64,000 nt of DNA from Xestospongia bergquistia (Eukaryota > Porifera > Demospongiae > Haplosclerida > Petrosiidae), in assembly GCA_963965975.1 (NCBI GenBank), contig OZ014416.1, positions 7,626,001-7,690,000 of the forward strand, given 5' to 3'. The notes under the pieces were generated by a model. That model made no database searches. It saw only the letters and a list, made by a program, of their open reading frames with translations, and was not told where the DNA came from. This document shows positions 4,916-49,133 of this stretch, piece after piece (position 1 is the first letter of the stretch; the number at the start of each line of letters is the position of its first letter). The translations under genes and the position numbers were made by a program.

Positions 4916-7900
4916 ATGGCAGCTCAACGTTCAGAAGAGCAGTATTACATTGTAAGTATATTAGTGAATAATATAGTATACTACATATGTTAGTGTACAA
5001 TCAAAATATTGCATATTTTTTTAAACAGAGCAATGCTCAATGGCCAGAAAAAAAGGACTATCCCATCCAATCAATTACAGTATATTACATAAATATAGCA
5101 GCTGTCAAAGTTGACTAGTTGAGTCTTTATAATAACTAGACAAAATGGGAACTAGCTAAACAACATAAAGTTTATCTTCTTTTTTCCCATACTAACATGT
5201 ACATAGCTTCTTCAAAACTCAAATTGTTCAACAAGTAATAATTTCCTAAAAGCTATAGCCTTTTAGTTGAGTGACATTATTTGATTATTTGTGATAAATA
5301 TACATCCTATTAAGATTTATTAAAATACAATTGATCGTGTTCATTACCACATGGTAAATAAAATCTGTTGCATGTTCACCTTGCTGCCGGAAATTAGTAG
5401 TGGGTGTAATTAGTATACATATCACACATCATAAATTAAATACTTGTGGTGTTATCTTTGAGTTATCCCATGTAGTAAAAGTCCATATGTCTATGTGAAT
5501 AGAGTTGATTTTTTCTTTTCTTGTGAGAACAAATTTACTAACTACAGTAGTATAGTACTTTTACTTATATCTATATGATTTACAGTTAGAATGTATTTCT
5601 GATCATACTGATTTCTCACTTCAATGGGCAACCATTTTTTTGATTAACGAAATTCATGAGATCACAGTCTCTTAGTCAATGTCATCTTCTATACTTTATT
5701 TATGGAAAGTATTTTAAATCTTGTTCTTGTGGGTCATATCATATAAAAATGATGTTAAAAGAATTGGATGGTCGTCAGGAGACCACTTGACTTTGAAATG
5801 TTGAATTTGGTTGAGTTATTAGAAAGTTATGATAATTTTTTTACTGGCGAGAATAGACCTTAGTTATAAAGAATGGTTATATCTACTATCATTCTATAGA
5901 CTTGTCTCTGGTTTTTCCTAGTACACACTTTAATATTTTGTTAGCGTCCAATTATTATTATTTCTTGATCATATCACATAGCGATACAAAATAAATATTA
6001 GCAACAAAGGAATGGAAATAGTTTGATAAAAATCAATTTTTTAAGAATAATTATATAGAGATGGAAATGTCTAAAATTATTGAAACAATGTAGGGATATA
6101 GTAATCTCTACATAACTAGAAATGACAAAGACTTTGTTACTGTAGTTTTAATTAGGAAATGAGACTACATGTACTACAAATAGTGTAGTATTGTTTAACC
6201 TATCATGTATATATATTCAAATTATGTCACTCATTAGTTATATAATAGTAAATAGTGGAAACCTTATCATATCTACAATGTATATACACACATGTATTGG
6301 TTTCCTCATATAGTTGTCCAGACTAATGAATCTAATTTGAACTGTAAAATTAATTATCATAGCATAATATGGATTCATTTAAGTTCAATTCCTTATATGG
6401 CTATATACTGGATAGGTAATATCAGGAGCACATGAGCGTCGCAAAGCGACGAGAAGGAGCGTCAAACTCCCTTAACCAACTGTTGTGGAATCAAGGCTTT
6501 GAACATATGTCCATATATGGACATAACTGCAAAGTGTTTTGCATTTTAATAGCTTCTGGCTGTAACCTCTTAGTTAGGTGTGCTTTAAATAGATAAAATT
6601 TAAGAGAAGTCAAGAAGCGACTTTCTGAAGACATGGAAGTCCCTGCTACACAAAAACAGCGGCTTACTCTGTCAATGGACCCAAGAATGGGTGAACAAAT
6701 GGGACATTTCCGGCTTACTGTTGGCAAAAAGGAGGTTTTAATAACACAGGTAAATAAAAATATATGTTGTTCAACTGTTTCCACCTCTTTAATGACAAAA
6801 GCCTCCATAACCTACCAGTCTAATTCTTTTAAACGTTTCTCGATGTACATAACTTCTTTCTTTTTTAGTTATTTTCACTATGATAGTTGTAATAATATTC
6901 ATTGCTCTGTCACGTACTTAACAGTACTTATGCTACTTAAGTGTATTGTCCTAATATGGAATAATCCATGACTGTGTTTCGACAATGGTTAGAATACAAA
7001 TATAATGGCAGTTTGACGTACATTCGCGTCGCTTTGCGACGCTCATACGCTCCTAGTAATATATACTAACACATTAAGTGTATAAGCATTTTAGTAAGTA
7101 CTCATATATAGTTAGTTTTAATATATCACATATATATTTATACACATCTCTTGTAAATCCATATGTTTTCCAAATCTTAGTAAATATACTAAATAACCTT
7201 CTAATATATGTATTATCATAAACAGAGTCATACTCATGTATAAAACTTACATGGCAAATTCGTATGTTAAAGTGACATATCATTGGGTTCTTCCGTGTTC
7301 GCCTACTCCGGGTTCGCCTACTCTAATTTTAACACAAAAGTACGGTTTTGCCTACGGATATCATTGTTAGCAATGTACTAGTTATGTAGGGATTACTACA
7401 TCTCTATTGTTTTTCCATAATTTCTTGACATTGCCATCCCTATATCTTTTTTTCATTTTTAAAGAAATTTATTGTAATTTATTGAACTGTTTATTATTAG
7501 TTAGTATAGTCTTGTGTTTGTAATACTAATTACATCATGTTCTTTTTATACAAATATTATCACTTTATGTATTGTGTATTTGACCTGTCCTATAGTTTTA
7601 TTAGTCTCATATAATAGATGTAGTTGTGTATGATTTACTATTTTTAAATGTAATGATTTGTTTTATTATTATATAGAACAAGGAACTTTGGGAATATGCT
7701 GAAGTTGGAAATTTAGAGAAAGTAAAACAAGCTCTTCAGAAAGGAGCAAACTTCGACTGTCATTTTAATGTAAGATCCTATTAATCTTATTATCTTATTA
7801 TCCTATTGCTTTATCTTTAATCTACTGTTATTATTTGTGTCTACTAACTTAAGTAATTAATTCAAATTATGTAGATTTAATGAGTATTGATTCATTTTAG

Positions 7901-10900
7901 CCACACCTAATATTAATTAAAAAATTCAACATTTACACAATTTATTAATTATTATTCTATTTGTTAAAGTTACTGAATTAGTATCAACAATTAATAACAT
8001 ACATGATCTTTACATGTAGTATTTTTAATATTGTCTTATAATTTAATTGAATGAAGTCCATTATATTGTGTGATAGTAATGTCTTAATTAATGATGCATG
8101 TCAATGTAAAGTAATATTATGTATTGTGTATACACAGATATGTAATTAGATTTTATTTCGTATATTAAAATTTCTTCTTGTATTTTATAGATGGATTATA
8201 GTAAAGGGCGTTATGTAACACGAACAACACCTCATACTATAGCTTACATTAATGGTCATAACACAATAGTACAGTTCTTAGAAAATGCAGGTGCTACTCC
8301 TGATTATGTAAGTATATACATGTAGTTGACGTCAATATTTAGTATAACTCAAGTATTTGATTGTTACATTAATATTATGTACATGTACATACTTATATTA
8401 AAATGTATCCTATTTATTGCCCAATTCCTTATACACATAACAATACATTTAATAGATAATTGATTATGACATTTACTAATATAATTGTTATATACCTATA
8501 TTCTGTTTATATCCACACTATCTTTCTATTAATATTAGTTTATATAGTTAATAACTATTATTAAATCATTAGTTTAAAACATGTCATATAACATTATAAG
8601 ATACAACAGTGTTATCAATAGACAATAGACAGTACTCGTTTTCATAGAGATACTACATTTAAAATAATACAGAGTTATCTATGTGATTAAGACACTAATC
8701 ACAAATAGCAGTTATTATAAAGTATATGTACTTAAAATGCTAAAAAATTAAGAGATTTGTTATACTTGTCATAATTACATTCATTAAAGTCAACACTTAG
8801 TGATTAGTGTCTTAACACTAGACAATTAATTATACTTGACTTAGGTTGACATCACAGGAAATATTTGTGTGTATGTATTAATTACTTTCAGAACACATAA
8901 CCACAGGAATATTTATTTTATGAAGAATTAATGGACCATATGTAATGATTGGGACACACTCAAAGTGGTATTAATTAGTTGATTTTAGTATTTCATCTTC
9001 TACCTGCTTTATGTTTAGATTTTTAGTTTTGGTATCATTTGGTTTGTAAGACTTTTCAATATTCTTCCTAATGTAGTACCACAAATTTTCTGCTATAAAT
9101 CTATTTATTTTTGAATATTAGTACTCAAATCTCTTCAGATAATGAAGTTGTGCTTTCATTGTTTGGGTATAGTTATACTTCAAAGTCATATACTTTTCAC
9201 ATAGTTAATAATAATGGAACATTGTTTCATGAAATCTGTGCCCTGTAACACAAGCTTTATATACATGTGTATTCATAGTATATACTGTAGTATTTGTTAT
9301 GATGTACATTATCTGTATTTACTTATTGTGATTTCTTAGGATGAAATTATGTTAGCAGCTGCTGTAAAAGGACTAGTAGATATAGTGAAAGAAGCTTTAA
9401 AGAAGAATGCTAATGTGAATGCCAAAGAACAAGATTTTGTAAGTTATACCTTATTATAATAAATGATTCTTTTCTAGTAAAGGATAGCTCATTGATTTCA
9501 TGATTATAATTTTTGTTTATAAGCAATATAATATTTTTATGAGAAGATGTGCATGCAAGAATTAGTACTTTTATATGTAAAACTTTTTGATGGTCATACA
9601 ATACTCAAACATAAGAAGCTATATTGTATATGTCATGACATTGTAATATAGTAATCAATATGATGATGAAAACATTAGGACATTGAAATAGTTTGTGTGT
9701 AGATACCAGCAATTAAAAACCAAAGTATACTATAGTATTTTAAAATTGTATTAGTCTTTTTTTCATTTGCATTCTTTGCTGTTTTATTATTAGGATGATG
9801 ATTCAGCTTTGCATTTAGCCTCAGGTAATGGTCATACTGAGACAGTCCAATTGCTTTTATTATCAAAAGCAGATCCTAATATTCGTAATAAGGTCAGTGT
9901 GTATTGTGTATAGTTTATATTTCATTTGTTGTCTCTACTACATGTGCCTATATGTATTACTTGTCTAGTAATAACTTTGTGATTTTTAAGATATGACATG
10001 ATACTTCCACAAAGTAAATAGTTTGTATGAATATCAGCTTCTTCATAATTAGGGAAGGTATTAAACTGAAAACTGCTATACAATGAGAAATACCTTAAAA
10101 ATTCCAAAAAAGCTAGCTATTGATGGCTGTTACATTGATTATATAGTTTATAATTCCTATTCTTTTTGCAATTGAATAATTTTTCCTTTTTTCTTTAGCA
10201 TGGACAAACACCAGCGCATCATGCAGCAAAGTGTGGTCGTGTTGATGTTCTAAAATTATTAATTGAAGTGGGACAAGCTGACGTAAATGCTACAGATAAA
10301 GTAAGTCATATATAGTTACTTATGAATTACTCCCTTGAAATGTGACACTCTTATGTTCTTTTCAATATTGATATCAACCTCACTCATATCCAAACTGTCC
10401 AATATGTTTTGGCAAAAGATGTTCCAAGAACATTCATTTTTGATTTTTACCTGCAATATGTCAAACATAGTGTATTGTCATTGCAACAACAATTACAATA
10501 TTTATTAATGTGTCAATTAATTAATAGTCATGAATAATTAGTAATCAAAACTTAGCATGCTCTGTGTGACCTTTATTAACCCTCCCATATATGTACTCAT
10601 GTACCTATAACTTGTCTATATTCTTGTGATTTACTTGTCTGATTTCTGCTTCAAATTTATATAATACATTCTTCATTAGTTGGATAGTAGCATTCTTAGG
10701 AACTTCATATATTCCAAATAGATCACCAACTTCAGTTGGAATTACATTGACATGTGGACAAGGTATTTTGTCCATTTGTATGTAAAACCATACTTCACAT
10801 GATCTAATGTGCAAGTAGTGAATTTGGTCATATCTGGTTCTCCAAAAAATATAATACTGTGTAATACCTGAAACAATTTACTGACAATTTTCATGGTATT

Positions 10901-13900
10901 AATCCTTCTCTCCTTTTCAATTGTATGACTTTTATATTTAATTCTAGTTCACAATGCTTTGTCAATGAGTGTTACTCGTAAGATAAATTTGAACATAAAT
11001 AAATCTAATTTGTAGGACATTATTGCTAACGTGGTATATATAAATGTCTGTGCTACATAAAGCGCTGTTGTTTGTTTAGATTAAAAGAAAAGAGAAAAAA
11101 TTATTCAAATACAAAAATTACACTAACTATAGTTATTGTATTACTATGTCAAATTTGAGCAATGATACATACATTTTCTCTTAAGATTTTACATGACAGT
11201 CTTCCTTGTCATTGTAAAATGTATACACCTTCAGTCTTTTTCTTATGACTATATATCAAAAGCATTTTTCAAAATTATTATAATCAAGTTAATCTGTTTA
11301 TTTGTCATCATATTACACATGAAATATATATTATATTACTTATAGCAATACAGTTGTTATTTATATTTTCACTACTTTAATTTTAGGGTGACAGTAATCT
11401 ACTACATTTAGCCTGTGCATGTGGGAATGAAGAAACCATACACTACCTTTTACATAATGTCCAGCTAAATCCAGATCATCTAGTAGCTTTAAACTTTCGT
11501 CAACAAATGCCACTGGATTGTATTCCACATTCTAACGTTAATAGATTTCAATTATTCAAGTTGTTTCAACCATTCAAACAATGTCACAGAGACTACCTCA
11601 CAGAATCATATGCTAAATTATTTCTCTGTGGAAAGACGGAAGCTGGTAAAAGTTCATTGGCTGCTGTTATCTCTTACCGTGCTAACAATCCGGGGTCTCA
11701 TTTTATTGATCCAAAAGAATGTGTTAAAGGTGTTGTATTGCAAACCACTGGAATTGAGTACCACAGTGTTCAGAGTTTGGAAATAGGAAATGTTGTAATT
11801 TTTGATTTTGCCGGACATGCAGAATATTACAGTAGTCATGCTGCAGTATTGGAAACTCTCTTGTTGAGGTCACCAGCTGTTTTTGTAATTTTAAGCAACC
11901 TTACTGACAATGAGGATACGATTAAGAAAGATCTGCTTTTCTGGTTTAACTTTGTTGAAAACGTGAGCATGAAATTAATTAGTTCAAGCCAAGTACTTGT
12001 TCTTGGAAGTCACGTTGATGAACTGTCCAGTGAAAAAGACTTCCAACCTTTTGTAAATAACGTAGCTACTCTGGCTGTTCGCTTTCAAAATTACAAAGGG
12101 TTTTTACCAGTTGATTGTCATCGACCAGAAGGAAAAGGTGTCAGGATGTTTATGAAGAAATTAAGAGAGAGCTGTGAAGCTGTTGTAGACAAAAATGATA
12201 AGATGAGCTACCACTGCCACTGTCTAAATTCTTATCTTCAACAGTTGGAGGTGGTTGCTATTAGCCTAGATGAGCTATGTTCCAAATCAATGGAAGAAAA
12301 TGAGCCTTGTCTTTTAACTGATCGATCAACAGTGTTAGAATTTTTGACCATTCTTGGAAGCAAAGGTCTTATTTTGTTTCTGGCTAATACATGGGTGATT
12401 ATTAACCAAAAGTCTCTATTAACTGATGTAAATGGTGTCTTATTCAATAAAACCATTGATCGTGAGCGTAAACCAGTTGCCAGTAATACTGGCATAATGC
12501 CCATCTCTACTCTAGCCAACCTTTTCCCTAAACACAACACAGATATGCTGATTAGTTTCTTAACAAGTCTACAATTTTGTCATCAAATGGACTCTTATGC
12601 TGTTTCTAGTATCACTAACAATGTATCATCTGATGACTTCCCTATTAGTAAAGATGAGAATTTTTTATTCTTCCCTGCACTTATTACAGCAGACAAGCCC
12701 ACTTTGATCTTTGAAACAACAGATGGATTTGGTTGGTGCTTATGGTGTCTTGAATCACATCAATTTCTCTCCATGCGTTTTCTCCATACTCTTCTTCATC
12801 ACATAGCTTATACTTGCTGTCCTCCTCCTCCTGAGGAAAGTAATTGTATTACTGATAATGCAACGATCCAAGATTTACACCGAGTCTGTACTATGTGGAA
12901 AAATGGTATTTATTGGAAAGAGGAGAATAATATTGAAGTGATGGTTGAGGTTACCGAAGGCAACCGATGTGTTACAGTTCTTGTGTCTCATAGCAATTTA
13001 ATAGAAAGTTATCAACTCCGTGCATCACTCATCAAAGAAGTACTCAAACTTAAAAATGAATTATGCCCATGTCCTTCAAAACAATTCATCATTGCAGCTG
13101 GTAATATTAAGGATATCATGGAAAAGGAACAGAAATGCCGCACCCTTTATGGTCTGAGAAACGTTGCTAAAGGAGTGCTAACGAGAGAATCCATTACTTC
13201 GTCTACTAAAGAATGTGTTGCTGTCCAATTAGTAGTTGGTGAAAAGGAACCATACCTCTCTATTGCCCCTCTTGTGACCAAAGCTCTTTTTACTGACACC
13301 AACAAAGATCTACCACTACCAGATTACTATGTCCAACATATAGATGAAGTATGTGGAGAGATCATGTCCCTCTATCCATCATTAAATTTTACCCACCTCT
13401 CTGTAAGAGAACATCTCAACAAATATAGTATTTTTGCTGGACGTAATCCTTTGGTAAGTTTACATTCACTTTCTCTTAACAGTGTGTCTATGAAATTGTT
13501 TTATCTTCTCTACATAGAGTATACCTTCTCCACCAATAAAAGATGATGTAATACAAAGATTATCAAAACATGTTCAGACAAGAACAACAAAAGGTTCTAA
13601 TTATGTCAGTATTCTCTTGTATTGACTTAGTTATTATTACAGATTATATTAATCCTGTTACCAAACCTGACAAACAGATGTCATCATCTATTACATACAA
13701 TGTTGGAGGTATGTCTACATGTCAAGAAAATGTCATATTTCCATTAATTTAGTTTATTTGTTAAATTTCCTTTTTTTATATCTACTACATTTATATCTGA
13801 TTACTTGTATTAATTGTTATATATTATTATATTACAGGTAGTAATCAGGAGACAATGTTAACAAAGGATAGTTTAACTGATGAATTCAGTCATTTCCCTA

Positions 13901-15174
13901 AATTATGTATGTTTTTATATCACAGTTCTTTATCTTATTGTACTTACAGTTGAAAGACCTACAAGACGTGATGTTTTAATTCAACTAGTTGATATTGATG
14001 CTTTATGGCGTAGTATTGGAGATGGTCTTGGAGTGAGTAATAATGTTCTTAAAGGTTTGGCTGAATCTAATATGTCAAATCAAATACGACTTGGTGAAGT
14101 TGTTCAAAAGTGGTTTGACATGAATGGACAAGGTGAAGGTGCTTCTGTCACATGGATCACCATTTTAGATGTCGTCAAGGGACCACTTGTTCAAAACAAA
14201 GCTCATGCTATGAAAATATATGAGTATTTGAAACTAGAAGGTTCTGTACAACGGGTTACTCAAAGTAAGTATGTAATAATATCTTCAAAAGTTATATAGA
14301 CTGTTTACATAATATTTCCATTGTCACAAAAAAGGTAGTCATTTACATGCATATGTGTCATTTGAGATTGCTATAGGAGACATTTTCTCTCATTTACTCT
14401 GGAACAGGACGGTAAAATAATGACTATGAGATACTTGAAAAGTTTATCAAAATGAACAGAATTTCAATTATCACACTATGATGTGTAAATATATTTTATT
14501 ATAGGTAGTAACAGTGAACATCTTGGAGAAGAGTCCTCTAGAGCTCATGATAATAATGGTACATATATATATATACTAGTATATATATTATGTTCATTGT
14601 TATACTATATTTTAATAGGAGGTGTGGCACAAACCAACAATAACACAATTATTGAGCAAACTGATAGTAAGTTACTTTATCTATATCATTTAAAATGTAC
14701 ATGATTACATAATGATTACTAAATAGCTAATTCTTTTACTTTATTTACAATATAGGTATTAATAAAAGTGTTAGTGAGTTTAATACTAATGACAGTAACA
14801 CTATTAGCAGTAAGTCTATAATTAGTGTAAAGGTGATGTCATTACATTATTGTATATATATAGGTAAATGTGATGCATCAAAAATTTTTAGGATTCATTC
14901 TGCTGATCTTTGTGATATAATTGTAGATGCTAATCCTCATCGTATTGTTAACAGACTTGTTGCTGCTGATCTGTTGCCAACAGGTGCTAAGGAAGATGTT
15001 AAGAGTACAACTGATGTATATGACAAAGCTGATAAAATTGTGGAGAAACTACAGAGCCAGATAAATGATGATGAACACTCAATTGAGTTACTAAAGAAGA
15101 TTTGTGATTTTCTTTTAGAACAAAGTGACAAGACTTTAAAGGACATTGGTACTAAAATGATGAGTCAACTGTAG
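4916..15174 (+). CDS. Gene 1: ankyrin-Roc-COR-Death-CARD protein, 15 coding exons
   Basis: Predicted 1201-aa multidomain protein. Coding exons: 4916-4951, 7677-7769, 8191-8307, 9340-9438, 9794-9892, 10199-10300, 11387-13453, 13518-13593, 13643-13708, 13838-13906, 13950-14264, 14505-14558, 14619-14666, 14756-14809, 14864-15174. They total 3606 bases, and every junction keeps phase with GT/AG ends. Order of parts: short acidic N-terminus MAAQRSEEQYYI, six ankyrin repeats (about residues 13-222), Roc-type GTPase with P-loop GKTEAGKS (264-271), DFAG (322-325) and SHVD (391-394), COR-like region, Death domain (about 942-1046), Ser/Asn-rich linker, CARD-like C-terminus (about 1099-1201). The start ATG is chosen because it is conserved with the same GTAAGT donor in paralogous copies at 24033 and 57049. 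No stop or frameshift was seen. The architecture resembles animal Roco/DAPK-like and Death-fold sensors; ligand and pathway are unknown. The exon 8 donor (G|gttcta at 13593) is weak and uncertain. Confidence 0.86.
6423..7055. mobile_element. Inverted-repeat DNA element in gene 1 intron 1
   Basis: Termini are long inverted repeats of about 40 bases built on GAGCGTCGCAAAGCGACG (6433 onwards) and its complement near 7027-7044, flanked by GTAATAT on both sides (6416-6422, 7056-7062). The paralogous introns in units B and C lack it. The interior has an open stretch at 6633-6971 (MEVPATQKQRLTLSMDPRMG...) that I do not recognise, and no transposase signature. Superfamily not assigned; the termini are far richer in CpG than the surroundings. 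Confidence 0.75.
7285..7357. mobile_element. 73-bp insertion with 8-bp target duplication
   Basis: A small CpG-bearing segment with an internal repeat of GTTCGCCTACTC is flanked by ATATCATT on both sides (7277-7284, 7358-7365). The paralogous site near 25250 lacks it. The 8-bp duplication fits a hAT-mobilised miniature element, but no clear terminal inverted repeat was seen. Confidence 0.6.
7677..10300 (+). other. Gene 1 ankyrin exon block (exons 2-6, one repeat per exon)
   Basis: Five exons of 93, 117, 99, 99 and 102 bases are all phase 0 at both ends, and each encodes one ankyrin repeat. Exon 2 reads NKELWEYAEVGNLEKVKQAL and onward, a capping repeat. Exon 3 has TTPHTIAYINGHNTIVQFL. Exon 4 has LAAAVKGLVDIVKEAL. 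Exon 5 has the textbook ALHLASGNGHTETVQLLL with a GTCAGT donor. Exon 6 has TPAHHAAKCGRVDVLKLLIE with a GTAAGT donor. A sixth repeat opens the large exon (LLHLACACGNEETIHYLL). Ankyrin stacks normally bind other proteins. In the paralogue at 24-49 kb the same five positions are kept, and eleven further ankyrin exons sit after the fifth repeat. Confidence 0.88.
10605..10856 (-). pseudogene. Antisense coding-like relic in gene 1 intron 6
   Basis: Minus strand reads open as HIRSCEVWFYIQMDKIPCPH...GDLFGIYEVPKNATIQLMKN...IDKL and then a stop. Related segments lie in gene 2 introns near 31800-32045, 32990-33235, 40990-41250, 43440-43690 and 44580-44825, mostly frame-broken (44509-44781 keeps part). 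The family is not recognised. It probably spread passively with the ankyrin exon modules. Confidence 0.4.
11387..13453 (+). other. Gene 1 large exon: last ankyrin, Roc GTPase and COR-like region
   Basis: One uninterrupted 2067-base exon (689 codons), unlike the one-repeat-per-exon design before it. It opens with an ankyrin repeat (LLHLACACGNEETIHYLL). The GTPase follows: P-loop LCGKTEAGKSS, switch II/G3 motif FDFAGHAEYY, and G4-like LGSHVDEL, which matches the relaxed THxD form of Roc domains rather than NKxD of Ras. Downstream are a winged-helix-like stretch (VLEFLTILGSKGLILFL) and a segment ending FFPALITADKP, as in COR regions of Roco and DAPK-type proteins. The remaining 250 or so residues are not assigned to a family I recognise. 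The exon ends at TTG before GTAAGT. If the following 64-base intron is kept, an in-frame stop is reached at about 13545. Confidence 0.85.
13950..14264 (+). other. Gene 1 Death-domain exon
   Basis: A single 315-base exon (phase 1 at both ends) encodes a Death-fold domain. Hallmarks: ALWRSIGDGLGVSNNVLKGL (helices 1-2, with W and IG.gLgV), RLGEVVQKWFDM (helix 4) and VTWITILDVVKGPLVQNKA (helices 5-6, with TW.tIL..v). Death domains form homotypic signalling complexes. The exon is a multiple of three and could be skipped without changing frame. The gene 2 equivalent at 47921-48235 has the same length. Confidence 0.85.
14505..15174 (+). other. Gene 1 linker exons and CARD-like last exon
   Basis: Three tiny phase-1 exons (54, 48, 54 bases) encode a polar Ser/Asn/Thr-rich linker with no predicted fold. 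The last exon (14864-15174) encodes about 103 residues of helical character: HSADLCDIIVDANPHRIVNR, LVAADLLPTGAKEDV, YDKADKIVEKLQSQI and ELLKKICDFLLEQSDKTL. The pattern of spaced helices with a short EDV turn and KADKIVEKL resembles a CARD. I call it CARD-like because DED and other Death-fold members cannot be separated by eye. Stop TAG at 15172-15174; AATAAA at 15289-15294 is a plausible poly(A) signal. Confidence 0.7.
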
Positions 15175-16109
15175 AGTGTAAGTTGAAAATATTACATGAA
15201 CACACATAACATCTATAATGTTTAAAGTAGATTAAATAATTAAATTTATAATAATTACTTACTTGGTTGTGTATTGAGTTAATTACTCAATAAAATGTAC
15301 TAGAAATAGCTGACATGTGTTTTCTCTATTAAATGAATTAACTGATTACAATCTTGTTATAATACTAACAATACTAGTGTATTATTATATACAATAATAC
15401 TCAAAGAGACAAAAATTATATAAATAACAAACTCTTTAATATGTAATAAGTTTTTAATAACTACATGTTCTTTTCTATTGTAGGTTACATGGTCTTTGGA
15501 TAGAGTCCTCCATTTTACATTTTGTTACATTTGTTGTTATCTAATACTATATTTAGTAGACTGTATTAGTGTTTGTTACTTGAACTATTAGGTTATAATA
15601 TTTTATTTTATTTGTCTTGTAGATTTCCCTCCATTTTTATATTTTTGATGTAATGTATATAATGCTATATATTACAATTCCTGATTTGAATTTTTAGACA
15701 TTGTTGTATCTTAAATATGATGTATTCCTTAAAAGAAAACTTTTAATTCTTTAAAAGAGTACATGTACTTTAAATCTATAACCAAACACAGTTAATAGGG
15801 AAATTGTAATATATAAACTAACAATTTTATATTATCAAACATACTATATGGACATAACTTACATAGACAACAAATTCTAACTAGGAACAACTACCCATCT
15901 TAATACCACATTTGCATGGATATTTGAGTATGCAATTAACTATGTTATGAATATAATTAAACATTCCAGTCATCCACAAAGTGTTTTCCTGATTACATAT
16001 AGTCTTTCAAAGGAGGAAGGAGCATAATATGTCAAGAGATTACTTTGAGGCTATGGACTTCTGATATCTATAGTACCTTTAACAGTCTTTATTAATATCA
16101 ACCATTATG

Positions 16110-16166
16110 TACCTTATAGAATTCTTAGCCTCCATGCAAAATTAAGACTAAGAATTCTATAAGGTA
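16110..16166. repeat. 19-bp inverted repeat downstream of gene 1
   Basis: TACCTTATAGAATTCTTAG (16110-16128) and its exact complement at 16148-16166, loop 19 bases. The paralogous site near 50151-50206 keeps the core AGAATTCTTAG/CTAAGAATTCT, with decay outside it. Confidence 0.88.
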
Positions 16167-16196
16167 GAGTATATAGGTAGTGACCATTTCTATAGC

Positions 16197-16303
16197 ACAG
16201 GAAGTCCATAGTTCAATGACAAATTAATTCTATTTAATAGACACTAATGCCTAAATATTGGAACGTAATGTATTAATTTCATATTGAAGTATGGACTTCC
16301 TGT
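16197..16303. repeat. Foldback repeat with ~32-bp arms downstream of gene 1
   Basis: Arms start ACAGGAAGTCCATA (16197-16228) and are mirrored at 16272-16303 with a few mismatches. The same foldback lies at 50237-50343 after gene 2. It could be a miniature element older than the duplication, or a retained RNA hairpin. Confidence 0.8.
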
Positions 16304-17436
16304 ACCATACAAATACCCATTACAATATATAATAATTATACAATTTATACTAATCAACTCTACAACAATAACATAATGTTAAGGAGAACCAAATTCATTG
16401 TCTTCATTGATGTTTGGAGTAAAATGTCTAGTAAAAGAAGGAAATCAGGAACAAGTAGAAGATATTAATACTTCAAGTATATCACTAAATATTATAATAC
16501 AAATGACATTAATGAATACACCAAAAAAGGAACAATGTCTTGCAATTGATAATCTTCATAGTATAAATGAACACGATTGTAAACTGTCTACATTATGGAG
16601 CATCTTGAGTTCATTTTAAGAAAATAATGTCTGCATATACTAAGATCTAGACTGTAAGACACACACTCACTAAATTAATACAAAGAATACGTCATCATCT
16701 AGTAATGTAGTAATCCTCATCTTTGTTGGTGTCCAAATCTGTTATCAATTCAAACTATAACTATATAATCATTACTACTGTGGTATTCAAGTATAAAGTG
16801 GACATGTTTTAACATGTCATCAACTGGAAGAAATTTGTGCTGATAATTAACAAGTTAATAATAATTATAATTTAATTATTAACAAATTTCTCCATTAAAA
16901 AGGAGAAATAGATACAAAAATCATATGAAAAAATTGGAATTTTTATTTGTGCCAAACAATTTGATTAAAATGATTACAAAAGAAATGAAACACTTTTTGT
17001 TTAACAGAAGATATCAAACAAACTATGAAATGATTTTAGTAGACAATCTGTACCTGCTAGATGTCACACACACACATGTACATGTACATACAGACATATA
17101 TTTACACAACATATACAAGAACTACTAACACACATACAAACTTTACTAAATGTTAAACAAAAGAATATAGTAATAGAAAAATAATATTATGAAAACAAAA
17201 AATAACATTATATTTGTTTTAATATGAAAAAAAGCTATATATTATTTAATAAATATACTTTAATATACTGTGTTGTTTACATGTACATAATACACATAAT
17301 ATAAGACTAATATAAGTAGGTGGGGCTTCATTGACTGAGGGGAGTGATAATACATATGAAATTAGTTATTTACAAGTAAATGGTTCAATGTAGGAGTAGT
17401 CTTATAAAAAGGGGTGTGGTGTGATTGGGGATGTTT

Positions 17437-20220
<2,784 letters not shown>

Positions 20221-20225
20221 ACGTG

Positions 20226-39000: not shown

Positions 39001-42000
39001 ATTGGAAGCACAAGTGTGCCATATAGCATTTTTGAAAGCCAGGAGTTCAAGGATTTAGTGCATGAGCTAGACATGTCGTACAAAGTCCCAAGCCAATAAG
39101 CTTTGAGCAAACTACTAAACTATAACTAAAACTAAAACTAAAACAATTATGCTAACTATAACTATAGCTAAATTCATTTACATTTTATATTCATACTACT
39201 GATACATTGACATGTATCAGTAGGTGTGGCCTGTTATAATAGTAGTACATATAGTTGAAAGCATGTTGATATTTACCACTAGTATGGTGTATTATTTTGT
39301 GTTAAGATGTTCTGATGATTGTAGGAGTAATATCATCAGCACTATTATACTTTCATACTGTTACTAGATCCCCATTCCAAAACCTAAACACTAAATGCTT
39401 GAACATAGGAAAAACACCCATTAGTGAGCCACTCCCATTTTAATTTTGAGACAGGAACTTGCCATACACTAGACGTACAAATTAATAAATAGTTAATGTT
39501 ATGTCGGAATTGCCAAAATATTTTTTTGTATTTCAATTAATTTTTTCCTTTTTTTCTAGACTGGACAAACACCAGCACATTATGCAGCACAGGAAGGTCA
39601 TGTTGATGTACTAAAGTTATTTATTGAAGTTGGACAAGTTGACGTAAATGCTAAAGACTATGTAAGTTATATTATAGTTACTATGAATTATTCCTTTTCA
39701 TTTTGGCTTCTTATTGATTATGGTATTCTATAAACTTTTTAGTCAGTTTTTGTATTTTTATATCTCTATCATTGGTCATATTTGAGTAAATGATAAATTC
39801 TATTACATACATTAATAACTTAGTTCTACTTCATAGTGCTTTGTCAGTGACTGTCATTTTAACCTTGCGTCCAATATTGGTACCAACCTGTCTCATATAC
39901 AGTTTGCTTATAAATTGATAACATGTTTTGACAAAAATGTCCCAGGAACAATAACCGAAAGTTAAAATTTCATATTAAAAGGTTAACAAATATATTCATT
40001 GTGAGGTATCAGTAGGTGTGGCCTGTTATAATATATAGTAGTATTGAAAGCATGTTGATATTTACCACTTATATGGTGTGTCGTTTTGTGTTAAGATGTT
40101 CTGATGATTGTAGGAGTAATATCATCAGCACTATATTATACTTTCATACTGTTACTAGACTCCAAAACCTAACACTAAATGCTTGTACATAAATTAAATA
40201 AATAGTTAATGTTATCTCGGTATTGCCAAAATATTTTTTTGTATTTAAATTCATTTTTTTCTTTTTTTTTCTAGTATGGACAAGCACCAGCACATAATGC
40301 AGCATTTAAGGGTCACGTTGATGTACTAAAGTTATTTATTGAAGTTGGACAAGTTGACATAAATGCTAAAGACAATGTAAGTTATATTATAGTTACTTAT
40401 AAATTATTCCTTTTAATTTTGGCTTCAATATTGATTATGGCATTCTATAAACTTATTAGTCAGTTTCTGTATTTTTATATCTCTATCATTGGTCATATTT
40501 GAGTAAATGATAAATTATATTGTATACACTTCATAGTGCTTTGTTAGTGACTGTCATTTTAACCTTGCATTTAATATTGGTACCAACCTGTCTCATATAC
40601 AGTTTGCTTGATAACATGTTTTGACAAAAATGTCCCAGGAACAATAACTCAAAGTCATTCATAGTTGGAAAGTACTAAAGCAGTCATTAACAATAACAAC
40701 AATTTAAGTATGTTAACATTACAACAAATTAATAAGAAAGAAAGTACTATTCTAGATTTCCTGTTCTTATTTTGAGAATTGAAATTTTCTTTATTTGCTT
40801 TCATTACCTTATATTTTAGTTTTTACCTACATTGTGAACAGAGCCTGTTTTGCTATACTCATTAATGACAATATTCATAATTGGATCAATTAATTAATTG
40901 TCATGAATAATAAGTTCTCTAAATTATGAAGACTCTCCATGCCTTTTTTAACACTTCCTTTCACATACACACAAACAAAATGTTGTCTATTCCCTTGTGA
41001 TTTACCTGTCTGTCTGTGGCTTCAATAGTTTTTGGGCCTCTGTTATAATGTATTCTACATTGATTTTCCTATAATTAAGCAATAACATTCTTAGGAACTT
41101 CATATATTCTGAATAGATCATCAGCTTCAGGTGAAAGTACATTGATGTATGGTCAAGCCATTTTATTTATTTTTAGGTAAAACTATAGTTCACATGATCT
41201 ATTAGACAAATAGTGAATTTGGTCACAACTGTTTCCTTGAAAAATAAACTACTGTGTAAAAACCTTTAAAATTAAATAATATGATTAACATTGCTATAGT
41301 ATTAGTCCATGTCTCTTTTTTATATGCCTATCATTAGATATTAATAATAAATTGTATTATTAATGACTCAAATATGCTCTATCAATGACTGTCACTGCTA
41401 GTGTCATTTATGTGCTAATTCTATAGTACCAGTTCTTCTCATGAAATTTTTATAAATTAATTAATATATTTGTGGGAATCTAGTTTTTTTTTTCATTACA
41501 TGTACTTCAAAGTGATAATAGAAAGGATGGTGTATACATGTACATATATGTAGTACTGTCTGTCTATAGTATGTTTGCTCTGACTTAGGACCCTAAGCAA
41601 CATAATTAACGTTAACTTTTAAGATAATGACATGGGATTTTACCTGTCTATAGTATGTTTGTACTGACTTATAATTAGGATCCTAAGCAACATAAATAAC
41701 TTTGTCATCTTTTAAGATAATGACGTGACGCTTCACAAAGTGGGTATTTTGTAAGAATATCAGCTTCTTTGCAAGTAGGGAAGATATTTAACTAAAATCT
41801 TCCATACAATGACAAAGAAATACCTTATAAATCCAAAAAAGCCAGCTAATATCATAATGAAGTAGTAAGTTATCATAATTTCAAAACAACTAGGTACAAG
41901 GCTAGGAAGGAATTAACAGTGCCCTTTCCAATTGCTATTGATTCAGACCATAATGAATGTTGGTGTAGCTTCTTGTTTATCAATAGGTATGGCCATAGGC

Positions 42001-45000
42001 GTATTTAGACCTGGGCCAGCACAGGCTTTGCCCGGGTAAACTTGCTCAGACCAAAATTAATTACATTTTTTCAAAAAATAAATTCATTGCTTTAACCAAA
42101 ATGAAATTTATAATCTGTTTATTTACACGAAGATTAACCACTAACACATACCAGTCCAAATGTATAACTTCACAGTTAGCAATTTGCACCTGCACCTGTA
42201 TTGTAGAGTTTTGCCTTATAGTTTCTTTTGATTTTGAACACTTTGTGAACTGTGAACTGAGTCAGACTGAGTGCCAAAATGAAAAGAACTCTTAAAGACT
42301 TTTGGGCTTCTAGTAATAGCAGCAGTAGTGGTGTAGGTCCATCAAAAAAGCATACAATGTTCCAGAGAGTGAGGAAGATGACAGTGGAAATGACAGCAAT
42401 GATGAAATTGACAGAGAAATTAGAGGATTAAATGATCAAGGTGGTTAGGTGTGAATCTAATAACAAAGTAGTTTGAAATTATTCTTTCTATTTTTATGGT
42501 ACTGTACAGATACAGATGATGATGGTGTTGATCTAGAGAGTCCGCAGGGTTTAGTGATATACCCACAATTCCAGAAGTTAATGTACATGTACATGGTTGA
42601 GTAAAGGTTTAAATTGTTAATAACTATTAATAACTACTAATTAATAATGATGAATAATTAATAAGCCCTAGTACTATTAGAGACCTAGATGCGCCTATGG
42701 GTATGGCCTGTTATAATATTGTATATTCCTTAGTAATTTTAGTTTATTGTTGATAATTTAAATTACATCAACTATAAATAGATGAGTTGTTAATATTATT
42801 AGTGGTTATCACTAACAATATTCACAATGTGAGATGTACTACTTATTGTCTAAATCCTTTGCACTATATCAAAAATTGTATTTAGTTATTTTCTGTGTTT
42901 TTCTGTCATTGGTCAGATCTGATGTGGTAATATAATAGTTATATGATTACCTCCATTGATGACTGTTATATTGGCTATATAGTTTATAATTCCTATGATT
43001 TTTGTAATTGAATAACTTTTTCTTTTTTTCTAGGATGGAAAAACACCAGCACATGTTGCTATGCAGAATGCTCATGTTGATGCTCTAAAGTTATTAATTG
43101 AAGTGGGACAAGCTGATGTAAACATTACAGACAATGTAAGTTATATTATAGTTACTTATGAATTATTTCCTTTGAAGTATGTTGATTAATATTGTCTTCA
43201 ATATTGATATCAACCTCACTCATATCCAGACTGTCCAATATTTTGATAACCTTTTTTGGCAAAGGAAAGAACAATACTCAAACATCGTTTTTTCACCTGT
43301 AATGTGTCAAACATTGCTTGTTGTCACATTGACAAGTACAATATTTATTAATAGTCAATTAATTAATAGTGATGAATAATTAGTAGTCAAAATTTAGAAT
43401 GCTCTGTATAACCTTAATTAACCCTCCCACACATACACACATGTAATTAATAACTAGTCTTTATTATTGTAATTTACCTGTCTGTTTGCTGCCTTAAATT
43501 TTTATAATGTATTCTACATTAGTTGGGTAATAGCATTCTTAGGAGCATCATCTTTTTTAATTAGATCACCAGCTTAAGGTGGAAGTATATTAACATGTGG
43601 ACAAGGTATTTTGTCAATGTCTATGTAAACGCATAGTTCACATGATCTATTAGACAAATAATGAATTTGATCATATCTGGTTCTCTACTCCTGTGTACAG
43701 ACCTGAAAATATATTGACATTTTCATAGTATTAGTCATTATCTCCTTTTGCATTAATGATTTAATTCTACTTCACAATGCTCTGTCAGTGAGTGTTACTC
43801 ATAGATCTGTTTACATGAGATAAAATTTGTACATAAATGAAATCAAAATTGTAAGACATCATTGCTATGTGGTATAGTCAGATCTGTCAGATTTAACATA
43901 GTAATACAATAAATATATAGTTAGTGTAATTTTTGTATTTGAATAATTTTTTTTCTCTTTTCTTTCTAGTCTAAACAAACACCAGCACATTATGCAGCAA
44001 AGATGGGACATATTGAGGCTCTAAAGTTATTAATTGAAGTTGGACAAGCTGATGTGAATGTTATAGATGAAGTAAGTCATATTATAGTTACTTAAGAATT
44101 ATTTCCTTCCAAGTATGACATTTTAATGTAGTATTCAAATTGATATCAACTTGTCTCATACCCAGACTCCTTATTATTTCATATATATTGAGAATATGTT
44201 TTAACAATAAATGTTCAAAAAAATCTGAAATCATTCAGAGTTAGAAAAGTACTAAAGCAATTTAAATGATAAAATCACTCCCATAACAACATTTTAACTA
44301 TCATATTTTTTGATAGTACAATCAATTGATAATAAAGGACATACTTTTCCAGATTTCTTGTTCTTTCTTTGAGGATTGACAAATTCTTTAATTACTTTTA
44401 TCACCCTAAATTTCAGTCCCACCTACATTGTGTCAAACATAGCCTGTTGTTGTCACATCGACAATTACAATATTTATTAATGGTCAATTAATTAATAGTC
44501 ATGAATAATTAGTAATCATGCTCTGTGTGACCTTTATTAACCTTCCCAGTGGCTCCCACATATACATACACACATGTACATAATAACTTATCTATATTCT
44601 TGTAATTTACCTGTCTGCTTGCTGCTTCAAATTTTATAATACATTCTACATTACTTGGTAATATTGGGAGCTTCATATATTCTAAATAGATCACCAGCTG
44701 CAGGTGGAAGTACACTGATATGTGGACAAGGCATTTTGTCCGTTGTATGTAAAACCATAGTGCACATGATCTATTGTACAAGTAGTAAATTTGCCCATAT
44801 CTGGCTCCCTGGAAAATACATTACTGTCCAAAAAAATGCAACAAATTTGATATGTATTGACATTTTCATAGTGTTAGTCCTTGTCTCCTTTTGCATTACA
44901 CAAATTAGTGATTTAATTCTACTTCTCAATGTTCTGTCAGTGAGTGTTACTTGTAGACCTGTTTACATGAGATAATATTTGTACATAAATGAAATCGAAT

Positions 45001-48000
45001 TGTAAGACATTATTGCTATATGGTGTAGTCTCTATGCTGCATAATGCGCTAGTGTTTGTTTAGATTAGAAAGAAAAGAGAAAAAAATTATTCAAATACAA
45101 AAATTATACTAGTTATAGTTATTGTATTACTATGTTGAATTTGAGCAATGATTGTGACTAACATACTTTTTGTCTTAAGATTTTACATGTCAGTCTTCCT
45201 TGTCATTGCAAACCTTTTTTTTGAAAGATTTCATTTTTTTCTTATAACTACTATATATCCATATCATTCTTTGAAATTATTGTAATCAAGTTAATCTGTT
45301 TATTTGTCATCATATTACACATTAAATATATATTATATTACTTATAGCAATACAGTTGTTATTTATATTTTCACTAATTTCAATTTAGGATGACAATAAT
45401 CTACTACATTTAGCCTGTGCAAGTGGCAGTGAAGAAACCATACACTACCTTTTATATAACGTTCAGCTAAATCCAGATCATCTAGTAGCTCTAAACAGTG
45501 ATCATCAAATGCCATTGGATCGTATTCCACCAGATATATCTAACAGTAATAGATTTCAATTACTAAAGTTGTTTCAACCATTCAAACAATGTCACAGAGA
45601 CTACCTCACAGAATCATATGCTAAATTATTTCTCTGTGGAAAGACAGCAGCTGGTAAAAGTTCATTAGCTGCTGTTATCTCTTATCGTGCTAACGATGGA
45701 CCATATGGTTACTATGATCCAGATGAATGTGTTGAAGGTGTTGTATCACAAACCACTGGAATTGAGTATCACAGTGTTCGTAGTGTAGAAATAGGAAATG
45801 TTGTAATTTTTGATTTTGCTGGACATGCAGAATATTACAGTAGCCATGCTGCAGTATTGGAAACTCTCTTATTGAGGTCATCAGCTGTCTTTGCAATTTT
45901 AAGCAACCTTACCAACGATGAGGAGATGATTAAGAAGGACCTGCTTTTCTGGTTTAACTTTGTTGAAAATGTAAGCATGAAGTTAATTAGCTCAAGTCAA
46001 GTACTTGTTCTTGGAAGTCATGTTGATGAACTGCCCAGGGAAAAAGACTTCCAGCCTTTTGTAAATGATGTAGCAAATCTGGCTGTTCGTTTTCAGAAAT
46101 ACAAAGGGTTTTTACCAATAGATTGTCATCGACCAGGAGGAAAAGGTGTCAAAACGTTTATGAAGAAATTAAGAGAGAGTTGTGAAGCTGTTGTGGACAA
46201 AAATGACAAAATGAGCTACCACTGCCACTGTCTAAAATCATATCTTCAAAAGCTGGAGGTGGTTGCTATTAGCCTAGATGAGCTATGTTCCAAATCAATG
46301 GAAGAAAATGAGCCTTGTCTTTTGACTGATCGATCAACAGTGTTAGAACTTTTGTCCATTCTTGGAAGCAAGGGTCTCATCCTTTTTCTGGCTAACACAT
46401 GGGTGATTATTGACCAAAAGGCTCTATTAACTGATGTAAATGGTGTCTTATTCAACAAAACCATAGATCGTGAGCGTAAACCAGTTGCCAGTAATACTGG
46501 CATAATGCCCATCTCTACTCTAGCTAACCTTTTCAAAAACCACAACACAAATATGCTGATTAGTTTCTTAACAAGTCTACAATTTTGTCATCAAATGGAC
46601 TCTTATGCTGTTGCTAGTATCACTAACAATGTACCATCTGATGACTTCCCTATTAGTAAAGATGAGAAATTTTTATTCTTCCCTGCACTTATTACAGCAG
46701 ACAAGCCTACTTCGATCTTTGAAACAACAGATGGATTTGGTTGGTGCTTATGGTGTCTTCAATCACATCAATTTCTCTCCAATCGTTTTCTCCATACTCT
46801 TCTTCATCAGTTAGCTTATACTTGCTGTCCTCCTCCTCCTGAGGAAACTGATTATATTACTGATAATGCAGCAATCCAAGAATTACACCGAATCTGTACT
46901 ATGTGGAAAAATGGTATTTATTGGAAAGAGAAGAATAATGTTGAAGTGATGGTTGAGGTTACCGAAGGCAACCGATGTGTTACAGTTCTTGTGTCTCACA
47001 GCAGTTTAATAGAAAGTTATCGACTCCGTGCATCACTCATCAAAGAAGTAATCAAACTTAAAAATGAATTATGCCCATGTCCTTCAAAACATTTCGCTAT
47101 TGCACCTGGTAATGTTAAGGATGTCATGGAAAAACAACAGAGAGATCGCATCCTCTATTCTCTGAGAAATGTCGCTACAGGAGTACTAACAAGAGAAACC
47201 ATTACTTCCTCTACTGATGAAAGTGTTGCTGTCCATTTAGTAGTTGGTAAAAAGGAACCATACCTCTCTGTTGCCCCTCTTGTGACCAAAGCTCTCTTTA
47301 CTGACAGCAACAAAGATCTACCACTACCAGATCACTATCTCCAACATATACATGAAGTATGTGGAGAGATCATGTCCCTCTATCCATCATCAAATTTTAC
47401 TTACCTCTCTGTAAGAGAACATCTCAACAAATTTAGTATTTTTGCTGGACGTAATCCTTTGGTAAGTTTACATTCACTTTCTCTTAACAGTGTGTCTATG
47501 AAATTGTTTTACATAGAGTATACCTTCTCCACCAATAAAAGATGAAGTAATACAAATATTATCAAAACATGTTCAGACAATAACAGCAAAAGGTTCTAAT
47601 TATGTCAGTATTCTCTTGTATTGACTTAGTTATTATTACAGATTTTATTAATCCTGTTACCAAACCTGAAAAACAGATGTCATCATCTATTACATACAAT
47701 GTTGGAGGTATGTTTACATGTCAAGAAAATGATTAGTTTTCATATCTACTACATTTATATCTGATTACTTGTATTAATATTTATATATTATTATATTACA
47801 GGTAGTAGTCAGGAGACAATGTTAACAAAGGATGGTTTAACTGATGAATTCAGTCATTTCCCTAAATTATGTATGTTAAGTAATCTTATATGACAGTTCT
47901 TTGTTTTATTCTACTTACAGTTGAAAGGCCTACAAGATATGAAGTCTTAAACAAACTAGCTTGTATTGATGCTTCATGGCGTAGTATTGGAGAAGGTCTT

Positions 48001-49133
48001 CGAGTGAGTTATAATGTCATTAAAGGTTTGGATGAATCTAATAAGCCAAATCAAACACGACTCAGCGAAATTATTCAGAATTGGCTGGACATGAATGGTC
48101 GAGGTGAAGGTGCTCCTGTCACATGGATCACCATTTTAGATGTCGTCAAGGGACCACTTGTTCAAAACAAAGCTCATGCTATGACAATATATGAGTACTT
48201 GAAACAAGAATGTTCTGAACAACAGATTGCTCAAAGTAAGTGGACAATATGATCTTTAGTAGTTAGAATTATACAGACTACTTGCATAATAATTCCATGG
48301 TCACTAATGAGGTAATTAATTACTCATGTCAGCCATATTGGAGGTCACTTTAGGAGACATTTTGTCGTAGCTTTACAAGTATCTTTAATTGTTATGGAAT
48401 ATAACAGTAAATCATTGTCTATGAGATAATTAGAAAGTTTACCTATTGTTAACTGAAAGAGTTCAAAATAAACAGTTTCAATTTTCAAACTATTTTATTA
48501 TAGGTAGTAACAATGAACATGTTGGAGAAGACTCCTCTAGAGCTCATGATAATAATGGTACATATATACACTAGTATATATTATGTTCATTGTCGTACTA
48601 TATTTTATAGGGGGTGTGGCACAAACCAACAATAACACAATTAATGACCAAACTAATGGTAAGTTACTTCATCCTGACCTGTACACGAGGATATAATGAT
48701 TCCTCCTCAATATAGGTATCAATGAAAATGCTAGTAAGTCTATTACAGAGGACAATAACACTGTTAGTGGTAAGTTTATCATTTATTAAAGATAGATAAT
48801 GTATGTTATTAATTATATCATACAGGTAAATGTAATCCATCTGAAGTTTTTCAAAAACACTCTGCTGATCTCTGTGACGTGGTTGTAGCTAATCCACTTC
48901 GTATGGCTAACCATCTGGTTTCTGCTGATTTGCTTCCATCATGTATTAAGAAAGATGTTAGGAGTATAAATGATACATATGAGAGGGCTGACAAAGTTGT
49001 TGATGAGCTACAGAGCCAGATAGATAATGATGAACACCCAATTGAGTTACTAAAGAAGATTTGTGATTTTCTTTTAGAACAAACTGACAAGACTTTAAAG
49101 GAAATTGGTACTAAAATGATGAGTCAACTATAG
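24033..49133 (+). CDS. Gene 2: expanded ankyrin-Roc-COR-Death-CARD protein, 26 coding exons
   Basis: Predicted 1573-aa paralogue of gene 1. Exons: 24033-24071, 27087-27179, 28538-28654, 30341-30439, 31038-31136, 32314-32415, 33576-33677, 34983-35075, 35543-35641, 35781-35885, 36469-36567, 37084-37185, 37876-37977, 39560-39661, 40275-40376, 43034-43135, 43970-44071, 45389-47461, 47517-47592, 47642-47707, 47802-47870, 47921-48235, 48504-48557, 48611-48658, 48716-48769, 48826-49133. The sum is 4722 bases, with all phases consistent and no stop seen. Parts: N-terminus MAAQLSEEEQERI, 17 ankyrin repeats (about residues 14-593), Roc with P-loop GKTAAGKS (637-644) and DFAGHAEYY, COR-like region, Death domain (about 1315-1419), linker, CARD-like end (about 1472-1573). 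Introns hold several transposable elements. Whether all 16 ankyrin exons are used in one transcript cannot be told from sequence. The exon 19 donor (G|gttcta at 47592) is weak, as in gene 1. Confidence 0.85.
25478..26180. mobile_element. Inverted-repeat DNA element in gene 2 intron 1
   Basis: About 703 bases with inverted ends (AGTCCCTATG...CAGGGACT; similarity extends about 45 bases to CACCTCACTG on the complement). CTAG on both sides (25474-25477, 26181-26184) could be a 4-bp duplication, or the TA inside it could be a Tc1/mariner-type duplication. No transposase was seen. It lies in a 1.5-kb stretch (about 25350-26868) that is missing from the unit A paralogous intron. Confidence 0.7.
27396..28229. 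mobile_element. DNA element with 8-bp duplication in gene 2 intron 2
   Basis: An 834-base insertion flanked by ATGATCTT (27388-27395 and 28230-28237), where gene 1 has one copy of that octamer (near 8003). The subterminal parts are inverted repeats: GTTCATGAAAGAAAAGAATG near the left end against GTTCATGAAATAAAACAATG on the complement of the right end. The 8-bp duplication suggests hAT. No coding region. Confidence 0.7.
34104..34136 (+). pseudogene. Truncated ankyrin exon relic in a gene 2 intron
   Basis: Reads VGQADVNITDR followed by a GTAAGTTATATTATAG donor flank, exactly like the 3' third of the TPAHYA-type exons, but the 5' two thirds and the acceptor are missing. It marks an incomplete exon duplication between exons 7 and 8 and is not expected to be spliced in. 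Confidence 0.75.
34306..34390. repeat. ATGT/GATATA simple repeat
   Basis: Runs of TATG and GATATA units in gene 2 intron 7. Short reading frames across it come from the repeat and are not genes. Confidence 0.8.
38352..39154 (+). mobile_element. hAT-like transposon remnant with BED-finger coding relic
   Basis: The ends carry TAGTGTTGTTTTAGTT and, on the complement, TAGCATAATTGTTTTAGTT, with repeated AACTATAACTAAAAC motifs. The interior encodes a decayed N-terminal transposase in several frames: IGHPKELIWDYF, CGAKVNGKFTTNLKNHL, HHPDILNELE (a BED zinc finger) and IFIGSTSVPYSIFESQEFKD. Stops and frame changes make it non-functional, and most of the transposase is missing. It sits between ankyrin exons 13 and 14 of gene 2. 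Confidence 0.72.
41994..42699 (+). mobile_element. Non-autonomous hAT-type element with exact 8-bp target duplication
   Basis: A 706-base element with ends CATAGGCGTATTTAGACC and, on the complement, CATAGGCGCATCTAGGTC. It is flanked by GGTATGGC on both sides (41986-41993, 42700-42707). The paralogous site near 31581 reads GGTATGGTCTGTTATAAT without the insertion. A short reading frame MKRTLKDFWASSNSSSSG (from about 42278) looks like the start of a hAT-type transposase and soon ends. Lies in gene 2 intron 15. Confidence 0.88.
45389..47461 (+). other. Gene 2 large exon: last ankyrin, Roc GTPase and COR-like region
   Basis: A 2073-base exon (691 codons), colinear with the gene 1 large exon and strongly similar along its whole length. 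Ankyrin repeat LLHLACASGSEETIHYLL, P-loop LCGKTAAGKSS, G3 FDFAGHAEYY and G4-like LGSHVDEL are all kept, so nucleotide binding is plausible. The two extra codons lie just upstream of the GTPase (PPDISNSN against PHSNVN), and there is local divergence in the loop after the P-loop helix (NDGPYGYYDPDE against NNPGSHFIDPKE). It ends TTG|GTAAGT, as in gene 1. Confidence 0.85.
47921..48235 (+). other. Gene 2 Death-domain exon
   Basis: A 315-base phase 1-1 exon, with ASWRSIGEGLRVSYNVIKGL, RLSEIIQNWLDM and VTWITILDVVKGPLVQNKA. All Death-domain hallmarks of the gene 1 exon are kept; changes are mostly on predicted surface positions. Confidence 0.85.
48504..49133 (+). other. Gene 2 linker exons and CARD-like last exon
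   Basis: Linker exons of 54, 48 and 54 bases match gene 1 in length and phase. The last exon (48826-49133) encodes the CARD-like helices: HSADLCDVVVANPLRMANHL, VSADLLPSCIKKDV, YERADKVVDELQSQI and ELLKKICDFLLEQTDKTL. It has one codon fewer than gene 1 (VANP against VDANP). Stop TAG at 49131-49133; AATAAA at 49248-49253. Confidence 0.7.

Follow-up and report, generated by a model that had tools for sequence, protein, structure and literature searches.

Can an animal base a repertoire of intracellular receptors on a Ras-like GTPase switch? The question is raised by a 64,000-nucleotide stretch of the genome of the sponge Xestospongia bergquistia (contig OZ014416.1, here C6, positions 7626001-7690000; henceforth the window), which carries two related genes combining an ankyrin stack, a Roc-like GTPase and a C-terminal tail of a Death domain and a CARD. 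A sequence-only reading had described these genes as two paralogues of the order ankyrin-Roc-COR-Death-CARD and had proposed a GTPase-based sensor that recruits adaptors. Here, we rebuild both genes, search the 146.46-Mb genome (21 contigs) for relatives and compare the copies. We favor, with a probability of roughly 0.58, the reading that the genes belong to an animal family of intracellular sensors that has grown large by tandem expansion. The sensor proposal is strengthened because the array is large, the ankyrin repeats vary at their binding face and the Death-fold tails differ between copies; the earlier description nonetheless holds only in part, because its COR component could not be confirmed.

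Two members of a large gene family

As had been claimed, both genes can be read exon by exon as open proteins, with GT-AG introns throughout. Gene 1 (4916-15174; all exon coordinates are window positions on the plus strand) comprises 15 exons and forms a single open frame of 1206 residues, instead of the 1201 first given. Gene 2 (24033-49133) comprises 26 exons and encodes 1568, 1570 or 1578 residues, depending on the uncertain donor of the exon at 35781, in each case within five residues of the earlier figure of 1573. Exon 1 of gene 1 (4916-4951) contributes 12 codons beginning with the ATG and has its counterpart in gene 2 at 24033-24071.

The two genes are not merely a pair. A genome search with the core exon of gene 1 ruled out that reading by returning at least 61 full-length matches, with 39 on C6, 14 on C1, four on C13, two on C7 and one each on C2 and C3; with 65 of 244 candidates scored (69 match rows), these counts are lower bounds. 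Identity of the family cores to that of gene 1 ranges from 88% down to 48%, with copies at 48-63% on C1 and C6.

The core is under purifying selection. We compared 24 copies from loci L009-L038, where L009 is gene 1, omitting three with stops (L019, L035 and L036) and three further copies of a block on C13 (L031, L032 and L034). The ratio of nonsynonymous to synonymous substitution rates (dN/dS) was 0.25-0.62 in all 276 pairs, with a median of 0.39, and 0.29-0.48 in the 23 pairs that include gene 1. Along the core exon, the pooled ratio of the proportions of nonsynonymous and synonymous differences (pN/pS) reached its minimum of 0.10 around the DFAGH motif (columns 141-175) and was near 1 between the P-loop and this motif (0.95, columns 106-140). 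Between genes 1 and 2, dN/dS was 0.80 for ankyrin exons 2-5, 0.27 for the Roc-like part, 0.62 for the COR-like part, 0.91 for the Death exon and 0.55 for the CARD exon.

These values bear on the possibility that the expansion is functionless and consists of recent segmental duplicates retained by drift. Such an origin would fit the 85% DNA identity between genes 1 and 2, introns included, over 5163 aligned positions, as well as four block copies on C13 and the stops found in five of the 61 full-length matches. The other 56 matches, however, are open over about 690 codons, and dN/dS stays below 0.63 in every one of the core pairs, so that we consider retention by drift hardly credible. The C13 blocks themselves, at 3.41, 3.63, 3.82 and 4.03 Mb, each pair an intact core exon with a broken core on the opposite strand, placed about 10 kb further on and at equal spacing; either a segmental duplication of recent date or an assembly repeat may account for the pattern.

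Variation at the ankyrin binding face

The proposed N-terminal ankyrin stack was borne out by a strong Pfam Ank_2 match in gene 1 (E-value 1.4e-24; 86.9 bits against a cut-off of 27.3), which places its tandem 33-residue repeats well above the Pfam cut-off. In gene 1, exons 2-6 (7677-7769, 8191-8307, 9340-9438, 9794-9892 and 10199-10300, together spanning 7677-10300) match Pfam Ank, begin in phase 0 and hold about one repeat each. Gene 2 has 16 such single-repeat exons before its core (27087-44071), against five in gene 1. Ankyrin exons are 93-117 nt long and in phase 0, apart from one uncertain exon of 75, 81 or 105 nt. Exon-plus-intron duplications are apparent in gene 2 around 37084, 37876, 39560 and 40275, where the blocks are 88-99% identical to one another, and a relic of an ankyrin exon, its 3' third with the donor, lies in a gene 2 intron (34104-34136).

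For a test of binding-face variation we used six canonical ankyrin binding positions, fixed in the script before the result was seen, which we take to be those randomized in DARPin libraries. Positions randomized in DARPins are located on the concave binding surface (PMC8229355). Across 20 ankyrin exons, nine from the window and 11 from 28 loci (L011-L038), pN was 0.438 at the six binding positions versus 0.144 elsewhere, and pN/pS was 4.18 versus 0.76; a pN of 0.438 was reached by seven of 5000 random six-position sets. In a sample of 13 exons, restricted to a single exon from each gene, pN was 0.424 at the binding positions and 0.148 at the others; the bootstrap 5-95% ranges of pN/pS were 2.83-7.49 and 0.67-0.86, respectively, and in every one of 300 bootstraps the binding positions came out higher. 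Amino acid variation is concentrated at the ankyrin binding face, and the pN excess together with the bootstraps disfavors the view that the ankyrin differences are neutral.

The GTPase core and the Death-CARD tail

A single core exon in each gene (11387-13453 in gene 1, 45389-47461 in gene 2) encodes the last ankyrin repeat, a Roc-like GTPase and a COR-like middle region. The motifs behind the earlier Roc assignment are present: the P-loop reads GKTEAGKS in gene 1 (near 11630) and GKTAAGKS in gene 2, followed by DFAGH (near 11810 in gene 1) and SHVD (near 12010). The core thereby displays the P-loop, DxxG and G4 motifs of a Ras-like G domain. GxxxxGKS occurs in 23 of the 24 aligned cores (in L021 the second G is replaced by E), and DxxG and GSHxD occur in all 24. 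Pfam Roc matched gene 1 with an E-value of 0.0014 (19.3 bits, cut-off 27) over the entire profile, positions 1-119 of 119, and matched 23 of the 24 paralogues at E<=0.5 (best 1.7e-4, 22.2 bits). A consensus sequence of the family cores did not improve this score (0.0032), and NCBIfam profiles returned nothing useful. In a PDB profile search with the core, all five sequences matched were LRRK2 Roc (best E-value 0.19). Neither NACHT nor NB-ARC turned up among the Pfam matches, whether for gene 1 (E<=1) or for the 24 core exons (E<=0.5).

The Death exon (13950-14264 in gene 1, 47921-48235 in gene 2) and the CARD exon (14864-15174 and 48826-49133), with which the protein ends, lie downstream. Pfam Death matched neither the whole gene 1 protein nor its Death exon alone, and the exon is identified by alignment with its paralogues, 17 of 22 of which match the profile at E<=0.5 (best 1e-4). 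One copy, L037, exceeds the Pfam cut-off (22.8 versus 22.6 bits), and a Death consensus did not raise the score (0.14). Pfam CARD matches were weak (four of 16, best 0.045) and absent with the consensus sequence. The predicted structure of the last 102 residues of gene 1 is a confident six-helix bundle, and the solved folds nearest to this model are CARDs, which points to CARD membership. When the Death and CARD alignments were searched as profiles against the PDB, the matches were weak and mostly unrelated, with a single row for a death-domain protein (RIPK1, E-value 0.4), and a profile comparison found no relation between Death and CARD exons. The predicted arrangement of two C-terminal Death-fold domains was thus recovered, the first through the paralogous exons and the second through the structure prediction that the sequence-only reading had suggested as a check. 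In the profile search suggested alongside it, Roc stayed below the cut-off in all 24 copies, Death passed it in one, CARD matches were weak and COR was not confirmed.

Tails differ between copies. Downstream sequence was inspected for 23 of the 61 copies, 3.5 kb each except for 1.5 kb at L036, whose core contains a stop. Death and CARD were both found in 16 copies, CARD without Death in two, Death without CARD in three and neither in two; the tail is therefore modular within the stretch examined. In two copies, the CARD is followed at a distance of roughly 1 kb by a second Death-like stretch (Pfam Death 7.7e-5 in L041). A lysine-rich stretch (SAPAKRKRSSSHSTSKKLKQ...) is conserved in the tails of four copies, L042 (4265-4369), L048, L058 and L039, none of which shows a CARD within the sequence inspected. 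This lysine-rich stretch, for which Pfam found nothing in L042, appears to resemble a nuclear localization signal.

Whether core, Death and CARD exons are joined was judged by splice-site conservation among copies. Of 23 copies, 20 share the core-exon donor CCTTTG|GTAAGT exactly. At the Death exon, all 19 matches retain an in-frame acceptor AG and all 19 a donor GT within two codons, exactly placed in 18; at the CARD exon, all 18 matches retain an in-frame acceptor AG. The Death and CARD matches are free of stops, and every one of gene 1 exons 9-15 starts in phase 1. The retained in-frame sites, like the 56 open cores, exceed what chance would produce. This regularity argues against the idea that our models wrongly fuse an ankyrin-GTPase gene with an independent neighbor encoding a Death/CARD adaptor. 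A split of this kind is compatible with models built from genomic sequence alone, and it could explain why L041 and L046 have no Death exon, and L042 and L048 neither exon, within 3.5 kb, why the gene 1 intron at 13609-13642 is just 34 nt long, and why some copies do not keep the sites of exons 8 and 12. Set against the conserved sites, the shared phase and the open tails, we regard it as highly improbable.

A proposed GTPase-switched sensor and its rivals

Under the sensor reading, the ankyrin stack, made of duplicating and diverging single-repeat exons, would bind the ligand. The Roc-like GTPase and the COR-like region would bind GTP and act as the switch, and probably as a dimerizing part as well. 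A change in GTP state or in the dimer would release the Death domain and CARD at the C-terminus. These would nucleate homotypic assemblies by recruiting Death or CARD adaptors or caspases, and the assemblies would set off cell death or immune signaling. Possible partners are encoded in the genome: we obtained 99 caspase-family matches (103 candidates) and 13 Pfam CARD matches (34 candidates), none of the latter near the ankyrin-GTPase family cores, together with at least 150 Death matches (150 of 983 candidates scored) and at least 95 NACHT matches (103 of 156 scored).

Several results weigh against this reading. The binding-face test uses positions assumed to be those of DARPin design and no tree, with few synonymous changes at the six codons; the pattern by which exons were selected leaves four of the 28 other repeat positions invariant or almost so, and positions 2, 8, 10, 17 and 31, outside the binding six, are variable too. 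Death exon dN/dS relative to gene 1 spans 0.39-1.09 (11 comparisons, with the L012 row possibly slightly misaligned), and the tail may therefore be relaxed in some copies. Sites of the linker exons are less regular, with the exon 8 donor found in 16 of 20 copies and the exon 12 acceptor in eight of 12. In none of the 24 copies does Roc reach the Pfam cut-off of 27 bits, and the matches to Gtr1_RagA are almost as good (20 of 24, best 3.1e-4). The COR-like region named in the sequence-only reading, finally, was not confirmed: Pfam COR-B matched two of 24 copies (best E-value 0.046) and COR-A none, a PDB profile search and hhalign against LRRK2 COR returned no match, and in tests with shuffled sequences the pairwise comparisons were just suggestive while family hidden Markov models gave no clear signal.

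The COR results, and the near tie between Gtr1_RagA and Roc, would be expected if the core were a Ras-like GTPase with a non-COR middle; the proteins would then not be Roco proteins, yet they would still be GTPase-switched Death-fold receptors. COR-A is found elsewhere, at no fewer than 146 places in the genome (150 of 171 candidates scored), and in none of the 61 family core exons. We rate this alternative as rather doubtful, though a serious contender.

Another alternative has the proteins act in ordinary apoptosis as DAPK-like scaffolds or regulators, the genes having been duplicated in tandem, with ankyrin differences that would reflect many internal partners instead of foreign or danger ligands. 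DAPK1 has ankyrins. It also combines Roc-COR with a C-terminal Death domain (PMC6337361). Here, a Death domain, supported by the Pfam matches of the paralogous exons, likewise follows the Roc-like GTPase and its COR-like region; the purifying selection seen in all 276 core pairs would suit such a role too. DAPK1, however, begins with a kinase and ends with its one Death domain (PMC6337361), whereas the sponge genes place a CARD after the Death domain, and no kinase matched at E<=1 in the 1206-residue gene 1 model (gene 2 was not scanned whole). With at least 61 copies, variation at the binding face and differing tails, the genes look more like a recognition family, and we consider a DAPK-like role quite unlikely.

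Relation to known systems

The sequence-only reading had set the Death-plus-CARD tail apart from the usual partners of Roco and DAPK proteins, a kinase or a single Death domain. A Roco-type protein with both domains is, however, already in print for Trichoplax adhaerens, whose ROCO proteins, with at least 17 putative genes, combine the animal Roc-COR type with CARD and death domains (PMC4104024). The repeats named for them are TPR and LRR; the accessible part of that paper mentions neither ankyrin stacks with single-repeat exons, nor an array of dozens of copies, nor binding-face variation. Roc-COR with TIR, Death or kinase domains is reported from sea anemones and Aplysia (PMC5094078, PMC9334734).

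Other systems share parts of this layout. The LRR-ROCO candidate immune receptors of brown algae, which undergo exon shuffling and diversifying selection, carry a Roco-type switch after an N-terminal one-repeat-per-exon array, but their LRR exons are 72 nt long, compared with mostly 99-102 nt for the ankyrin exons here, and their LRR-ROC-COR order lacks a Death-fold tail and is algal, not animal (PMC11378527). Bacterial AP-GTPase conflict proteins resemble the sponge family in a COR-linked AP-GTPase, fast-evolving N-terminal repeats and variable C-terminal domains, but contain LRRs and bacterial effectors in place of ankyrins and animal Death-fold domains (PMC8195603). Sponge NLRs likewise form a large family with a repeat sensor, a nucleotide switch and a Death or CARD output; they rely on NACHT, LRR and an N-terminal output, in contrast to the Ras-like switch, ankyrins and C-terminal output found here (PMC12909245). 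The Pfam scan of gene 1 gave no LRR match, with ankyrin instead. Roc-COR with CARD or Death in an animal and one-repeat-per-exon ROCO receptors in algae are already known. An animal ankyrin-Roc-Death-CARD array with binding-face diversification was not found in full-text literature searches, in which subscription papers were mostly out of scope.

We put forward tentatively, and at somewhat less than even odds, that the family is an animal recognition repertoire in which a Roco-type GTPase takes the place of NACHT or NB-ARC, ankyrin exons of one repeat each duplicate and diversify at the binding face ahead of the conserved switch, and Death/CARD tails are exchanged between copies, and which would have arisen as an independent parallel to the brown-algal LRR-ROCO and bacterial AP-GTPase proteins. 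If true, this would constitute a second class of animal intracellular repeat-sensor receptors, with a Ras-like GTPase switch and diversity created exon by exon. It would also offer a testable animal case for the origin of Roco GTPases as immune switches, and a setting in which to ask why LRRK2 and DAPK1 are linked to inflammation and cell death.

Other COR-containing loci and further features of the window

The COR-A matches elsewhere in the genome fall partly into two associations. At 27 of the 146 matches (C11:6.37-6.47 Mb and C12:5.39-5.54 Mb, outside the window), a caspase-like (Peptidase_C14) match lies 1.1-2.1 kb 5' on the same strand; random placement gave a mean of 0.3 and a maximum of 3 in 200 trials, with the lengths of C5, C8, C9, C10 and C14 guessed. 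This suggests a separate, putative gene family joining a caspase-like protease to Roc-COR. In eight cases, at C10:1.40-1.70 Mb, C13:2.11-2.12 Mb and C6:6.79 Mb, a COR-A match is followed on its own strand by a Death match 0.6-2.4 kb to the 3' side. This pairing drew on 13 of 150 Death rows, selected by eye and mostly for their closeness to COR-A matches, so that it has no control. The eight loci probably represent Roc-COR-Death families distinct from the ankyrin-GTPase-Death-CARD family.

Within the window, the 5' part of a third array copy follows gene 2 on the plus strand (57000-63544) and is truncated by the window end. Near 57050 its DNA is homologous to the exon 1 region, and its exons 2 and 3 lie at 62932 and 63434; its core exon is probably the one at C6:7693738. 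A 25-bp tandem repeat (4581-4911) stands immediately 5' of the gene 1 start codon, and related repeats likewise precede gene 2 and the third copy.

Intron 1 of gene 1 contains an element of about 645 bp (6417-7061) with 55-nt inverted ends that are 82% complementary, and which looks like a small transposon. It encloses a 124-codon open frame (6597-6971), which was ruled out as a gene 1 exon because it has no convincing Pfam match and lies inside the inverted-end element. Lastly, a long simple repeat at 51941-52418 gives open frames on both strands with Arg/Glu and Ser/Leu runs, and is probably not a gene.

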